This document shows positions 22,927 to 41,350 of a stretch of DNA of 64,000 bases, piece after piece. A model generated the notes under the pieces. The model was given only the letters and a program-made list of their open reading frames with translations. It was not told the origin of the DNA and searched no databases. The first letter of the stretch is position 1, and each line of letters opens with the position of its first letter. The translations under genes were made by a program, and so were the position numbers. The stretch is from Streptomyces sp. H27-H1 (GTDB taxonomy: Bacteria; Actinomycetota; Actinomycetes; Streptomycetales; Streptomycetaceae): assembly GCF_026627445.1 (NCBI RefSeq), contig NZ_JAPNLJ010000002.1, forward strand, positions 141,677 to 205,676, in the 5' to 3' direction.

Positions 22927-23385
22927 TCAGAAGGGCGACAAGGTCATGACGGCGCTCCAGGAGACCAACCCGGGCACCACCGCGACGAGCCCGGCGAGGG
23001 CCGCGGCGAGCGTGGCCGGGGCCCCGTGGGCGCGCGGGTCGGCGAAGGTCGCGCACAGCAGCATCAGGGCCGACGGCAGGAAGATCCACGCCCCGTCGGA
23101 CAGGCCGCTGACCGACCACGGCAGCAGCAGGGCCGCGAGGATCACGCAGGACGCCGTGAACCGCGCCCGGTCCGCGCGCAGTACGGGCGGCGCCGCGAGC
23201 AGCAGGACCGGGACGGCCGTCCGAGCCGCCGGCAGCCCCTCGACGAGCATCACCACCACCGGCGCCACCGGGAGGAGAAGCGCGGCGAGCGCGATCCGCC
23301 GCTGCCACGGGTGGGCGGCCCGCGCCCGGCGGGTCCTGATGCCGTCGCCCGCCGCGCTCCTTCCCGCTGCCACGGTGTCCGCCAT
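22927..23385 (-). CDS. Small membrane protein of unknown function
   Basis: A 152-residue protein with about four hydrophobic segments: IALAALLLPVAPVVVML, AVPVLLLAAPPVL, ASCVILAALLLPW, and two near the C-terminus. A basic N-terminal stretch (RRARAAHPWQRR) precedes them. No family is recognised. The ATG at 23385 is preceded by a GGGAG; an ATG five codons earlier is also open. It is convergent with the LysR-domain gene and divergent from the chitin-binding-like gene. Confidence 0.6.
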   Translation of the reverse strand: MADTVAAGRSAAGDGIRTRRARAAHPWQRRIALAALLLPVAPVVVMLVEGLPAARTAVPVLLLAAPPVLRADRARFTASCVILAALLLPWSVSGLSDGAWIFLPSALMLLCATFADPRAHGAPATLAAALAGLVAVVPGLVSWSAVMTLSPF

Positions 23386-23548
23386 GCCCGCTCCCGCCAT
23401 CGGTACGTGTCCCGGCCGGTTGAGCGCCTTCACGCCGGCCGGCAATCGCACACTCTGGCGACAGCTCGAGGATATTGCGTCCGCGTCACCCCCGTCCCTA
23501 TATTCACTTCGTATTCATATCGTCACACTGAGCGATCTGGGGGCACGG

Positions 23549-24127
23549 GTGTTACGCATCATCGGCAAGGGACTGGCCTCAATCGCCGCACTGGCCGCCG
23601 GGGCGGTCCTCGCCCTGGGCGCCGGGGCCGCGCCCGCGAGCGCCGTCGAGGGCTCGTGCGCCGGCAGCGTCACCGGGCGACTGCCGAGGGTGCAGGACCA
23701 GCGGTTCTACGTACAGTGCGGGGCCGGGGTCGCCACCGTCATAGCCTGCCCCACCGGGCAGGTCTACTCCCCCGAGCCGCAGCTCTGCGCGGCGCCCGAG
23801 CTGGTGCGCCCCGCCGTGGCCACCGTCGCCACGGCCGGTCCGGCGAAACTGAACGGGCTGCTCTTCGGGGTCAAGAACCTCAGCACCACCGTACGGATCG
23901 CGGACGCCCCGGCCGGGCTGGACGGCGTACCGGTCACCTTCACCACCGTCGGCGGCCGGACCCTCTGCACCGCCGTCACCGACCAGTTCGGGGCCGCCCG
24001 CTGCGACACCCCGGCCCGGCTGACGATCCCGCTGGACGAACTCCTGCGCGGCTACCGGGCGAACTACGCGGGCATCGGCGGGATCTACCTCCCCTCCTCC
24101 GCCACCGCCCCCATCGCGCTCTTCTAG
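23549..24127 (+). CDS. Secreted protein with chitin-binding (peritrophin-A/CBM14-like) domain
   Basis: A 192-residue exported protein with a GTG start. Residues 1-32 form a signal peptide ending in APASA. The next ~55 residues show the CBM14 spacing of cysteines and aromatics: CAGS..., RFYVQC, then ACPTGQVYSPEPQLC. The C-terminal part looks like one Ig-like beta domain (GVPVTFTTVGG, with a CxxxxxDxxGxAxC pair of cysteines). It may bind chitin or peptidoglycan outside the cell. The call is by cysteine pattern only. The 3' end overlaps the convergent GNAT gene by 4 bp. Confidence 0.6.
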   Translation: MLRIIGKGLASIAALAAGAVLALGAGAAPASAVEGSCAGSVTGRLPRVQDQRFYVQCGAGVATVIACPTGQVYSPEPQLCAAPELVRPAVATVATAGPAKLNGLLFGVKNLSTTVRIADAPAGLDGVPVTFTTVGGRTLCTAVTDQFGAARCDTPARLTIPLDELLRGYRANYAGIGGIYLPSSATAPIALF

Positions 24128-24933
24128 AGGGCGCCTCCCGGCGCGGACGCGGGCCCCAGTGCGTGCCGGACCCAGACGTTCGGCTCCACATAGACCGCGT
24201 AGCCCCGCTCCGGTTCGCAGTGGACCGGGGACAGGGCGCCCGGAACCCGGACCGGGCCCGCCGTGTCGAAGGGGAGGCCGGTCCACCCGCGCCACTGCGC
24301 GAGCGAGCCGCCGATCGTCATCGACAGCGGGGCCACCGAGTCGATGACACCGCCCGCCCGCACGTGGACCCGTAGCCACGGGTCGTACGGGAGCCCGTCC
24401 TCGCGGGTGCGGTACGCGTACTCGTGCATCGGGGTGTCCGGCTCGGCCGGCTTTCCGCTGGGCCGGACCGGCGCCACCACCTCGGTGAACCCGCGCGCCG
24501 AGGCGGTCTCCCGCATCGCCGCGAGCATCCGGCCCGACAGCCCCTCGCCCTGCCGGTCCGGCCGGACGCTGATCTCGATCGCGCTGACCGTGTCGGGCTC
24601 CACCCCGCGCCGCAGGTCGGAGAAGGCCCACATGAGGACCTGCTCCCAGCCCTGCGCGGGCAACCGTCCGTCCCGGCCCGCCACATGCAGGGCGAAGGGC
24701 ACGCTGAACGCCTTGGCGACCACCTCTCCGGTGGCCTCGTCGGTGGCGGCGAAAACATGGTCCGCGAGCTCCGCCATCATGCGCGGATACAGCATCCAGG
24801 CGATCGAGTCCTGGGTGGCGAACTCGGGCCACGAATCCTTCATGTCCCACAGCGCGTCGGCCAGTTCGGGCCGCTCGGCGAGCGTGGTGATCCGGATGCC
24901 GGTGGCGCGGGCAGACTCGGTGGTGTCGTCCAT
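24124..24933 (-). CDS. GNAT-family N-acetyltransferase-like protein
   Basis: A 269-residue soluble protein. The central region IEISVRPDRQGEGLSGRMLAAMRE matches GNAT motif A, with the acetyl-CoA pyrophosphate loop (R/Q-x-x-G-x-G/A), flanked by the AVSAIE-type beta strand. The protein is longer than a typical GNAT (about 150-180), with an extra ~100-residue C-terminal region of unknown function. The substrate cannot be deduced. Confidence 0.75.
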   Translation of the reverse strand: MDDTTESARATGIRITTLAERPELADALWDMKDSWPEFATQDSIAWMLYPRMMAELADHVFAATDEATGEVVAKAFSVPFALHVAGRDGRLPAQGWEQVLMWAFSDLRRGVEPDTVSAIEISVRPDRQGEGLSGRMLAAMRETASARGFTEVVAPVRPSGKPAEPDTPMHEYAYRTREDGLPYDPWLRVHVRAGGVIDSVAPLSMTIGGSLAQWRGWTGLPFDTAGPVRVPGALSPVHCEPERGYAVYVEPNVWVRHALGPASAPGGAL

Positions 24934-24964
24934 GCCCGCAGGCTAGGCGCGCCCCGACCGCCCC

Positions 24965-25549
24965 TCAACCCATTTGGGCGGGTGCCGGGAGCGAGAGGTT
25001 CCAGCGGCGCGGACCCCCGGCGAGGGTGAGGGTGGACAGGGGGCGGACGTCCACGTTCCAGTAGGTCAGCGGCGGCGCGTTCAGGGCGTACACGAGCGCC
25101 GCCCGGACCACCGACGGCTCCGCCACGGCCACGATCGCTCCTCCGTCGTCCGCCGGCCGGGTGTCGAGCCAGCCGCCGATCCGGGCGATGAAGGCGAGCA
25201 GGGACTCCCCGCCGTGCGGCGCGGCGCGCGGATCGGTGAGCCAGAGGTCCACGGCCGCGGGGTCCCGGGCCGCCACCTCGGCGAGGGTGAGCCCGCGCCA
25301 GTACCCCATGTCGCATTCCCGCAGGGCGGGTTGTGCCATCGGGGCGTACCCGAGAGCGGTCCCCGTGGCCCGGCTGCGCGAGGTCGGCGAACAGTAGCGG
25401 AGCTCGGCCGAGCCCAGCGGTACGAGCCCGCGCGCAGCGGATTCCACCGCGCGCCAGCCGTCCACGTCGAGGGGGCGGTCGTCGTCGAAGCGCTCGGCGA
25501 GCAGCGAGGTCCCACGGGCTGCTGCGACTAGCGAAACCCGAACATGCAT
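24965..25549 (-). CDS. Histidine-phosphatase-superfamily protein lacking the catalytic histidines
   Basis: A 194-residue protein with the phosphoglycerate-mutase-like fold pattern: N-terminal strand plus loop, CDMGYWRGLTLAEV, GESLLAFIARI, and a C-terminal VAEPSVVRAAL. In active enzymes the N-terminal loop reads RHG and the late loop SHG; here they read ARG (VAAARGTS) and AEP. Both phosphate-handling histidines are therefore replaced, so the protein is probably a non-catalytic relative or uses another chemistry. The start was set at the ATG giving MHVRVSLVAAARG. Confidence 0.75.
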   Translation of the reverse strand: MHVRVSLVAAARGTSLLAERFDDDRPLDVDGWRAVESAARGLVPLGSAELRYCSPTSRSRATGTALGYAPMAQPALRECDMGYWRGLTLAEVAARDPAAVDLWLTDPRAAPHGGESLLAFIARIGGWLDTRPADDGGAIVAVAEPSVVRAALVYALNAPPLTYWNVDVRPLSTLTLAGGPRRWNLSLPAPAQMG

Positions 25550-25633
25550 GCGGCGATGGTGATCCGCGTACCGCACGGGGTCAAGCGTCTGAACGAAGCC
25601 CGGCTCAGGGCGCCCACCCCGGACGGGCCCGTT

Positions 25634-27079
25634 TCAGCCACCGCCGCCCACGCCGCCCCCCAGCGCCGACCGAAGCCGCCTCGCCGCCTCGGTCAGCTCG
25701 CCCGCGCCGGACACCCCGGCGAAGCTCAGCCGGACGAACGGGCCGGGCGGTTCCGCGCAGAAGTACGGCCGTCCGGGCGCGACCGCGACCCCGGCCCGCA
25801 GGGCGGCCGCCACGAAGGCCGCGTCGTCGCCGCCCCCGCCGGGCCGCGCCCACAACTGGTAGCCACCCCGCGGCAGGTGCGGCACCTCCAGCCCGGGCAG
25901 CTCCCGCCGCAGCGCTTCCACGAGGACGTCCCGTCGGTGGCGCAGTTCGGCGGCTACGGCCCTGAGGTGGCGGGGCCAGGCGGGTGCGCCGACCAGTTCC
26001 AGGGCGGCTTCCTGGAGCGGGCGGGGCACGAAGAAGGTGTCCACGACCTGGATGGCGCGCAGCCGGTCGAAGACCGGCCCCCGGGCCGCCAGTGCGCCCA
26101 CCCGCAGACTCGGCGAGGTGACCTTGGTCAGCGACCGCACGTGGACGACCACACCGTCCGGGTCCTGGGCGGAGAGCGTCGCGGGCAGCGGGCCCGAGTC
26201 CTCGTGGGCCAGGGAGCGCGCGTAGTCGTCCTCCAGGACGAACGCCCCGGCGGCGCGCGCGATCCGCAGCACCTCGCCCCGCCGCTCGCCGGACAGCACG
26301 GCCCCGGTCGGGTTCTGGAACAGCGGCTGGCACACGAAGACCCGCGCCCCGGTCGCTTCGAAGGCGGCGGCCAGCAGATCCGGGCGGACCCCGTCCGCGT
26401 CCACCGGGACGGGCACCGGCCGGCAGCCGGCGGCCCGCGCGATGGCCAGGAGCCCCGGGTAGGTCGGGGATTCGACGAGGATCGGCGCCCCCGGCGGGGC
26501 GAGCGCCCGCAGTGCGGTGGCCAGCGCGCTCTGGCCGCCGGCGGTCACCAGTACGTCCCCGGCGGTGATCGCTCCGCCGATCTCGCGGGCGAACCAGTCC
26601 CGCAGCTCGGCCAGGCCCTCCACCGGGGGCCGGCCCCACACTCCGGGCCGTCGGCCGGCCCGGGCGAGGGCCGCCGCCATGGCCCGCTCGGGCTGGAGCG
26701 TCGAGTGGAGGTAGCCGCTGTGCAGTTCGATGACCCCGGCCGGCGGGGCGGCCAGGGTGACCAGCACCCCGGAGGCGTCCACGGAGCGCGGGACCACCTC
26801 GCCGGAGTCCTCGGCGCTCAGGGCGACGGCCTGCCAGGAGGTGTCGCCGGGCGCGGGGGCCTGCGTACGGGGCTGGGCGCGGTAGACCCCGGCTCCGGGC
26901 CGGGTCACCACGAGGCCTTCGGCGGCGAGCTGGGCGAGGGCCCGGGAGACGGTGACGGGGCTGACCCGGTACTGCTCGACCAGGGACCGGCTCGACGGGA
27001 GTTTTCCACCTACCGAGTAGCGGTCGAGCTCGACTCGAAGGGATTCCGCCAGTTCCGCCACGCTGCTACGCTCGTACAT
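25634..27079 (-). CDS. MocR-family (GntR-aminotransferase) transcriptional regulator
   Basis: A 481-residue PLP-dependent regulator. The N-terminal GntR winged helix (residues about 5-72) contains LPSSRSLVEQYRVSPVTVSRALAQL. The remainder is an aminotransferase class-I-like domain with the PLP lysine in SLTKVTSPSLRVG and the QPLFQNPTG block. MocR proteins sense PLP-linked ligands and often control a divergent transporter or enzyme gene. Here the start codon overlaps that of a divergent exporter gene, its obvious target. The ATG was chosen because the family N-terminus (MYERSSVAELA) begins there; a TATTCT box suggests a leaderless mRNA. Confidence 0.88.
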   Translation of the reverse strand: MYERSSVAELAESLRVELDRYSVGGKLPSSRSLVEQYRVSPVTVSRALAQLAAEGLVVTRPGAGVYRAQPRTQAPAPGDTSWQAVALSAEDSGEVVPRSVDASGVLVTLAAPPAGVIELHSGYLHSTLQPERAMAAALARAGRRPGVWGRPPVEGLAELRDWFAREIGGAITAGDVLVTAGGQSALATALRALAPPGAPILVESPTYPGLLAIARAAGCRPVPVPVDADGVRPDLLAAAFEATGARVFVCQPLFQNPTGAVLSGERRGEVLRIARAAGAFVLEDDYARSLAHEDSGPLPATLSAQDPDGVVVHVRSLTKVTSPSLRVGALAARGPVFDRLRAIQVVDTFFVPRPLQEAALELVGAPAWPRHLRAVAAELRHRRDVLVEALRRELPGLEVPHLPRGGYQLWARPGGGGDDAAFVAAALRAGVAVAPGRPYFCAEPPGPFVRLSFAGVSGAGELTEAARRLRSALGGGVGGGG

Positions 27080-27116
27080 GACAGCACAGAATAGCGCTAC
27101 TCTCCCCACCGCGATA
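27078..27116 (-). promoter_or_regulatory. MocR promoter overlapping the exporter gene start
   Basis: On the minus strand TATTCT (27093-27088) lies 8-9 nt before the A of the MocR start codon, where transcription would begin, so the mRNA should be leaderless. The -35 candidate TATCGC (27116-27111) is weak. The element lies inside the coding region of the divergent transporter. Confidence 0.45.
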
Positions 27117-28025
27117 GCGGTTCGAGGCACCGCCGCCCGCCGGCCCGCCCTCGGGGGCACCAGCCTCGCGGCGGTCGGCGTCGTCACCTTCTCGCTGACC
27201 TTCCCCGGTACCGCCTGGGGCCTGGAGAGCTTCGGCCCCTGGTCCCTCTTCGGCCTGCGCTGTCTGCTCGCGGGCCTGACGGCCGGCGCCTTCCTGCTGG
27301 CCCTGCGCGTCCCGGTGCCCGACCGCGCCCACTGGGCGGGTCTGGCCGTGGTCGCCGGCGGCGTGGTCGTCGGCTTCCCCCTGCTGACCACCCTCGCCCT
27401 GCAGACCTCCACCACCTCGCACGCCGCGGTGGTGGTCGGCCTGCTGCCGCTCACCACCGCCGTCGTGTCCTCGCTGCGCACCGGAGCCCGGCCCTCGCGG
27501 CGGTTCTGGACCGCGGCCGTGGCCGGCGCGGTCGTCGTCCTCGGGTTCACCGTGGCCCAGAGCGGCGGCGCCCTCTCGTCCGGCGACGCCTTCCTCTTCG
27601 CCGCGCTGCTGGTGTGCGCGGCCGGCTACACCGAGGGCGGCCGCCTGGCGCGGCTGCTGCCCGGCTGGCAGGTGATCGCCTGGGCGCTGGTGGTGTGCCT
27701 GCCGATCGGCCTGGCCGGCTCCGCGCTCGGGCTCGCCTACGAACCGGCCCATCCGACCGGCCGCGGGGTGGCCGGGCTCGTCTGGGTGGCGGTCGGCTCC
27801 TCCTTCCTCGGCCTCTACGTCTGGTACCGGGGCATGGCCGAGATCGGCGCGGCCCGCGCGAGTCAGCTCCAGCTCGCGCAGCCGCTGCTGACCCTGTTGT
27901 GGTCGGTGCTGCTGCTCGGCGAGCGGCTGTCCCCGGCCGCGCCCGTCGCCGCCTGCGCGGTGCTCGTCTGCATCGCCGTGACCCAGCGGCCGGACCGGTC
28001 GACCCGACGGGTCAAACCGCAGTGA
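27078..28025 (+). CDS. EamA/DMT-family transporter
   Basis: A 315-residue, ten-helix drug/metabolite transporter with two EamA repeats: the first from GGTSLAAVGVVTFSLTFPG, the second from GDAFLFAALLVCAAGY to LLGERLSPAAPVAA. The family exports amino acids and other metabolites. It faces the MocR regulator gene, with the two ATG codons sharing bases, so it is probably regulated by it. No ribosome site is visible before the ATG, consistent with a leaderless transcript. Confidence 0.88.
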   Translation: MTAQNSATLPTAIAVRGTAARRPALGGTSLAAVGVVTFSLTFPGTAWGLESFGPWSLFGLRCLLAGLTAGAFLLALRVPVPDRAHWAGLAVVAGGVVVGFPLLTTLALQTSTTSHAAVVVGLLPLTTAVVSSLRTGARPSRRFWTAAVAGAVVVLGFTVAQSGGALSSGDAFLFAALLVCAAGYTEGGRLARLLPGWQVIAWALVVCLPIGLAGSALGLAYEPAHPTGRGVAGLVWVAVGSSFLGLYVWYRGMAEIGAARASQLQLAQPLLTLLWSVLLLGERLSPAAPVAACAVLVCIAVTQRPDRSTRRVKPQ

Positions 28026-41052: not shown

Positions 41053-41135
41053 GGATCCTCCTCGGTAGCACCACACGGCTGCCTGGAGGACAGCCGCTGA
41101 CGATATTTCCGTCAGACCGACCGCGGCGGAGAATG

Positions 41136-41166
41136 AAAAAAGCCCCGCCGGGCACAGACAGGGGCT
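41136..41166 (-). terminator. Intrinsic-terminator-like attenuator in the infC leader
   Basis: On the minus strand AGCCCC pairs with GGGGCT across a 14-nt loop and is followed at once by six U residues. It lies about 85-115 nt upstream of infC and about 185 nt after the likely -10 box, inside the 5' UTR of the infC-rpmI-rplT operon. It is therefore placed to attenuate transcription; the effector (L20, IF-3 or translation itself) is unknown. Confidence 0.65.
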
Positions 41167-41350
41167 CCAATACAACCGGAGCACCCTCGCGTGCGAACCG
41201 CGGGGCGCAACATCGGGCAGCTTTCCATCGTCCGTACGGAACGATGGATACCGCCTGACCGGTGACCCGCCTCCCGTGAGGGTGGTCGGGTGGGAGAATC
41301 GGAGCCTCCACTTGTGGCCGGGCACATAAGTGTCCGGCCGGTCGAAGTAC
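41167..41350. other. infC operon long leader
   Basis: No protein-coding gene is visible between the infC attenuator and the divergent DUF1844 gene. The length suggests a structured 5' UTR that could hold an anti-terminator fold alternative to the hairpin at 41136-41166. Confidence 0.4.

Follow-up and report, generated by a model that had tools for sequence, protein, structure and literature searches.

The gene at positions 24965..25549 (minus strand) of the window, by which we mean the whole stretch of 64,000 nucleotides of Streptomyces sp. H27-H1 DNA that was analyzed, encodes a 194-residue protein that has the histidine phosphatase fold without either of the catalytic histidines. That it is a pseudophosphatase is well supported. 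Throughout, "group A" refers to this gene and its Streptomyces orthologues. We consider it probable that group A is a conserved pseudophosphatase which branched off within Streptomyces from a cobalt-linked family, moved to a position beside a gene for a MocR-type regulator, and kept a remodelled pocket with a putative binding or regulatory function. New here is the finding of relatives beside CbtB-CbtA, in cobalamin-riboswitch loci and in nitrile hydratase operons.

As an earlier note made from the sequence had stated, the frame and length are intact: the 194 codons are uninterrupted. A profile search matched residues 23-186 to PF00300 (His_Phos_1) with 80.8 bits, against a curated cut-off of 21.7. 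The AlphaFold2 model, based on 39 aligned sequences, has a mean pLDDT of 90.8 and a pTM of 0.88, and shows the phosphoglycerate-mutase-like alpha/beta fold; it was aligned by VIA-align with the phosphoserine phosphatase structure 4ij6 over 186 residues (Z 21.9, rmsd 2.4). The fold elements are therefore well kept, as the same note had proposed. In a Foldseek search with the model, entries of glucosyl-3-phosphoglycerate phosphatase (GpgP) and of phosphoserine phosphatase ranked first. The GpgP entry 6s2q was at rank 1, followed by Rv2419c (4pz9/4qih) from rank 7; the alignment with 4qih gave Z 20.6, and the APHGGES loop was likewise matched to GpgP. The window protein shares its fold with GpgP and is 26% identical to it; GpgP is an active enzyme that has its catalytic histidines. 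Similarly, PspA of Hydrogenobacter (4ij5 and 4ij6) resembles the window protein in fold (Z 21.6-21.9, rmsd 2.4). The top PspA match is a laboratory H9A mutant, whereas natural PspA has H9, and the NCBIfam PspA model gave 32.6 bits with the window protein, against a cut-off of 350.

The catalytic set of the histidine phosphatase superfamily consists of an arginine, a histidine and a second histidine. The earlier note had claimed that both histidines are lost and that the first loop reads ARGTS. The loss stands, because histidine is absent at positions 10 and 144, but the register of the first loop does not. Relatives that keep the histidine in a VSHAMT motif align with the window protein without gaps and place their histidine on A10, so the RHGE/Q position of active enzymes corresponds to A9-A10-A11-R12 (codons at 25514..25525, minus strand), two residues earlier. 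Invariant residues of this alignment include R4, R20, W84 and R149. The RHG motif with its nucleophilic histidine is thus A9-A10-A11 in the window protein. For the second motif, AEPSV in place of SHG was confirmed, the SHG position being occupied by A143-E144-P145 (codons at 25115..25123, minus strand). The second core arginine and the acidic residue are retained, as R58 (codon at 25376..25378, minus strand) and as D or E at position 78.

To follow these positions we used 131 distinct orthologues, drawn from 158 loci with an identity of at least 60%, with the frame-broken copy L144 and the decayed copy L165 excluded. Histidine is present at position 10 or 144 in 0/131, so that the lost histidines are conserved as lost; retention of RHG by most close homologues, which the earlier note had named as the sign of a recent decay, was found in none of the 131. 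Its suggestion of a pseudo-enzyme is in this way supported. A10, R12 and R58 are each present in 130/131 orthologues, and E144, P145 and an acidic residue (D or E) at position 78 in all 131; in the first set of distinct orthologues, R12, R58, H112, E144 and P145 were found in 95/95. Across Streptomyces, other and nearly fixed residues thus stand in place of the nucleophilic histidine, of the arginine and glycine beside it, and of the second catalytic histidine.

By a hand count of the protein search, 318 of the 392 Streptomyces genomes contain a match with E<1e-60, the range in which opened loci proved to be orthologues. No such match was found in the remaining 74, some of which contain fragments, nor in 5 genomes of other Streptomycetaceae genera or in 15 of other families of the order. 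Group A is dispensable, since 74/392 genomes lack a match at this level, one copy is frame-broken and one has decayed.

The nearest relatives of group A are CbtA-linked histidine-phosphatase-like proteins. In the trees, group A was nested among CbtA-linked Streptomyces rows whether the motif columns were included or not. The 45% relatives, found by their similarity to the window gene, adjoin CbtA in 26 of 29 Streptomycetaceae loci (28 from Streptomyces, one from another genus). The CbtA-linked Streptomyces relatives, which we call group B, also lack both histidines; among their 23 full-length rows, position 10 is P in 20 and position 144 is E in 17. Group A and the CbtA-linked proteins, most of which are annotated as "histidine phosphatase family protein", belong to the same superfamily, and many of the latter lack one or both histidines. 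Group A differs from them in lying beside MocR/EamA instead of CbtA and in having nearly fixed AAAR/AEP replacements. CbtA was adjacent to group A in 0/71 loci of at least 10 kb. The idea that group A tracks CbtA within Streptomyces was rejected, because in the 22 genomes listed group A is present in 11/12 with CbtA and in 8/10 without it. A third Streptomyces paralogue group (L253, L157 and L162; CATAG/TEPAV in L253) showed no CbtA match in the stretch examined.

Elsewhere in the class, 19 of the fetched rows have both histidines, not as RHG/SHG as such but mostly as SHA or similar and THP, and 18 of these 19 rows, all from outside Streptomycetaceae, are adjacent to CbtA. In one genus group (f20 g43, nine rows) the first histidine is lost and the second kept, and CbtA is adjacent in 1/9. 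The four rows of another (f19 g25) have RQA and CDA motifs; a CobQ-like gene is adjacent in all four, and an AdoCbl riboswitch lies just upstream in both of the rows scanned. In two f19 loci, L243 (1792-2552) and L247, the AdoCbl riboswitch directly precedes the histidine-less gene (IRQAGT/VCDAGP); in L243 this gene is followed by a chelatase-like gene (Mg-chelatase and VWA domains), and the CobQ-like gene is divergent. Cobalamin riboswitches were detected in 9/16 of the CbtA-linked loci scanned outside Streptomycetaceae, and in 3/20 and 1/8 of two sets of Streptomycetaceae loci, L137 being in both sets. These results cover part of the family members found.

The association extends to plasmids. 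A plasmid search with the window protein gave 53 records, many of them near copies, and CbtA is adjacent in at least 40 of them: at least 37 within 1.5 kb, judged among 60 listed of 85 CbtA plasmid records, and three more by annotation. In nitrile hydratase operons of Acinetobacter, Rahnella, Pantoea and Agrobacterium, CbtB and CbtA are followed by a phosphatase-like protein, which lacks both histidines in all four; L285, L288, L290 and L291 are proteobacterial plasmid operons of this type. On a Paenarthrobacter plasmid with an annotated cobalt-containing nitrile hydratase, a relative with RHG follows a membrane protein that is not annotated as CbtA. Only the first histidine is lost in the Paracoccus and Bradyrhizobium relatives, and only the second in the Granulicella and one Burkholderia relative. 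The companion is not a constant partner of CbtA: with flanks of about 1.5 kb it was seen at 12/30 CbtA loci and not at 18/30. Seven of the 23 plasmid CbtA records listed without a nearby match were opened, and an annotated companion was present in 0/7; one of them has a hypothetical protein of similar length after CbtA that had no Pfam match and did not fit the family profile. Together, CbtA gene order, cobalamin riboswitches and nitrile hydratase operons suggest a cobalt link for the ancestral group.

The accessible part of a Leptospira study (PMC4758666) describes cbtBA together with an additional hps_1 as three genes, located in cob I/III clusters. This hps_1 is among the closest known counterparts of the protein; its catalytic residues are not mentioned there. 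In a comparative study of cobalt transporters (PMC2667541), CbtAB are listed as predicted transporters, and the word "phosphatase" does not occur in its main text as accessible to us. The accessible part of PMC13188929 describes a plasmid cluster in which cobalamin genes and cbtB are accompanied by a histidine phosphatase family protein. No description of recurrent histidine loss was found in our searches of the open-access literature, most subscription journals lying outside the search.

Next, we considered the history of the loss using three trees, from all of which L220, L254, L155 and L145 (repeats, broken or truncated) were left out; L252 was also excluded from both trees built without motif columns, and L306 from the 77-row tree. 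In the 88-row tree, all Streptomycetaceae histidine-less rows formed one clade (100/98), with group A as one clade inside it (100/100); L252, from another family, was placed inside the histidine-less clade on a very long branch. Group A was also one clade (SH-aLRT 100) in a smaller tree without motif columns, which gave three changes for the first histidine and two for the second, and two instead of one for the Streptomyces histidine-less rows. The 77-row tree, also without motif columns and using only part of the rows of the 88-row tree, gave seven changes for the first histidine and eight for the second. All these numbers were obtained by parsimony on single trees in which many forks are unresolved, and some of the changes may be regains; moreover, the two-histidine row L246 sits on a long branch inside the Streptomyces clade of the 77-row tree, where it may have raised each count by one. 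Among the 69 non-outgroup rows, 23 keep both histidines, 30 lack both, 10 have lost only the first and 3 only the second; in 3 more the second is absent and the first was not aligned.

With seven and eight changes on the 77-row tree, loss is recurrent in the cobalt-linked group. As the eight outgroup rows of that tree were picked for RHG, the independent control is provided by the PF00300 matches of this genome: they occur at 13 places, and RHG or RHA is present in the matched frame at 10 of these. RHG is absent at two places, the window gene and the CbtA-linked L002/L266. L002 (contig 93, 1411-1878) lacks the whole R58 stretch, and this short form corresponds to a supported clade of eight rows. 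A further match, L268 (contig 176, 144104-144244), is weak (21.6 bits) and covers profile positions 46-92 only; RHG is missing from the matched frame and lies in a different reading frame of that strand, possibly because of a frameshift, either genuine or introduced in assembly.

The pocket was analyzed at positions set by the alignment and by the known residues of the family. The charges of the named positions add up to +1.75 for the four RHG controls and to -1.9 for group A. The sums were -1.3 in two-histidine relatives, -1.6 in rows that have lost the first histidine, -2.0 in RQA rows and -2.3 in group B. Because the two-histidine relatives already sum to -1.3, most of the acidic shift predates group A. 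At these positions, which were chosen by homology, the pocket of group A is somewhat more conserved than the rest of the protein (Mann-Whitney, p 0.027), but the test is weak, and the count test was not significant (Fisher, p 0.065).

We propose that the histidine-less form arose before one copy moved beside MocR and then became the genus-wide group A. Without a phosphohistidine nucleophile the protein would have no classical phosphatase action. With the retained R58, D/E78 and H112 and the new R12, D22-D24 and E144, the pocket would be remodelled and more acidic; it may take a cation, a ligand that is cationic or a partner protein, and through such binding the protein could work as a binding or regulatory protein. 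Since the ancestral setting is cobalt uptake, cobalt or cobalamin status is the first candidate ligand class. For group A itself a cobalt role would follow by descent only, because CbtA is adjacent in none of its 71 long loci and group A occurs with and without CbtA. The series RHG/SHG, SHA/THP, SCA/THP, SAA/THP, SPA/AEP, AAA/AEP and CQG/APA may serve as a natural test of how an enzyme becomes a binding protein. Should most of the cobalt-linked group prove non-catalytic, the label "histidine phosphatase family protein", used in most of the annotations opened, would be misleading, and CbtAB cobalt uptake would have an unstudied companion.

A further reading of the same data, which we regard as rather unlikely, is that the fold would be a third, non-catalytic component of CbtAB, acting in cobalt handling or gating, whose catalytic residues could be lost freely and were lost many times. 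Group A would then be a freed copy that acts in trans and, across the genus, senses or carries cobalt or a corrinoid, the old phosphate site being occupied by E144 and the D22-D24 run.

The present surroundings of the gene offer another explanation, without a tie to cobalt: group A could serve the MocR/EamA pair as a ligand-binding or regulatory partner. The MocR-type regulator (GntR plus aminotransferase domains; 25634..27079, minus strand) is the conserved upstream neighbour, and a gene for an EamA/DMT transporter (27078..28025, plus strand) diverges from it; both were assigned by domain search and locus comparison. All 71 group A loci of at least 10 kb have MocR upstream on the same strand, with EamA diverging from it in 70; including short loci, MocR is upstream in 79/80, the exception, L052, having only 641 nt upstream. 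This arrangement speaks for a partnership, but the gap between MocR and the gene lies anywhere between 31 and 4279 nt, with more than 300 nt in 45/79 loci; in five of the six such gaps that were displayed there is a frame that looks like an acetyltransferase, a label given from reading the sequence. Moreover, MocR at 68% identity or more is kept in 40/52 genomes without the group A gene (52 of the 74 mentioned above), and EamA was present in 12/12 opened MocR loci of such genomes. An obligate pairing of MocR and the gene was rejected on the retention of MocR in these genomes. In four close loci (L269-L272), MocR is directly followed by a GNAT-like gene, and no group A match was found at E 0.05. 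As MocR and EamA persist in genomes without it, the gene is a dispensable unit of its own next to MocR. An open-access search found no literature joining MocR and EamA, also in combination with Streptomyces.

Promoter-like boxes of its own also argue against such a partnership. A -35-like box (TTGACC, 25579..25584, minus strand) is followed after 17 nt by a -10-like box (CACCAT, 25556..25561, minus strand), and the ATG lies 6 nt further. Among 128 distinct upstream stretches of orthologues, TTGAC occurs within 50 nt of the ATG in 126, at -35 or -36 in 122 of those, compared with 2/128 in a shuffled control; CACGAT or CACCAT stands at a spacing of 17 from TTGAC in 120/128. A motif resembling a Shine-Dalgarno sequence was found at -20 to -4 in 0/128. 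In the window copy, the 6-nt distance between the -10-like box and the ATG fits a transcript beginning at the ATG, and we infer that the gene has its own promoter and a leaderless transcript. The window copy showed no riboswitch: within 24800-27600 the sole match at E 1 was to a snoRNA family, with 18.3 bits against a gathering threshold of 49. Considering both sides, a role as partner of MocR/EamA without cobalt is unlikely.

It is quite improbable that the protein works by new chemistry as a hydrolase, be it a phosphatase or another, with E144, D/E78, H112, R12 and R58 acting together as a novel catalytic set within the old pocket. The intact fold would allow it, and in group A each of these residues is fixed, almost fixed or exchanged for a similar one; but H112 is also present in 18/19 of the two-histidine relatives, position 144 is variable in group B, beside CbtA (E in 17/23), and the recurrent and varied loss elsewhere better fits a dispensable active site. 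The chance is very small that the protein serves cobalamin synthesis as a CobC-like alpha-ribazole phosphatase. The TIGR03162 model does match, and relatives occur in cobalamin loci, but the catalytic histidine is absent and relatives are also found in nitrile hydratase operons, whose enzyme is not known to use cobalamin. Membership of the CobC family was rejected, the match of 64.6 bits being below the equivalog cut-off of 162.9.

That the gene has recently decayed is barely conceivable: one orthologue has a broken frame and another has decayed, but the orthologues refute it, with either histidine in 0/131, nearly fixed replacements, purifying selection and conserved promoter-like boxes. The median NG86 dN/dS was 0.24 over 190 pairs from 20 sequences, a set in which L011 is mis-trimmed and L064 starts one residue early, and purifying selection is thus visible. 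Decay is excluded by the conservation across the genus, and the conserved TTGAC-N17-CAC(C/G)AT pair ending just before the ATG indicates a living gene, in agreement with the view of the earlier note that the gene is not decaying.

Some other features of the window were recorded. The downstream neighbour (24124..24933, minus strand) is a weak GNAT-like protein (PF00583, 17.5 bits, below the cut-off of 20.7), which has this position in only 12/71 loci. Next to it on the plus strand, 22946-24127 encodes a secreted-looking protein with a match to CBM_14 (peritrophin-A; 23.8 bits, cut-off 22.1), a domain best known from animals. Finally, positions 41135-41346 of the minus strand match the Streptomyces small RNA Scr1601 of Rfam with 146.6 bits.
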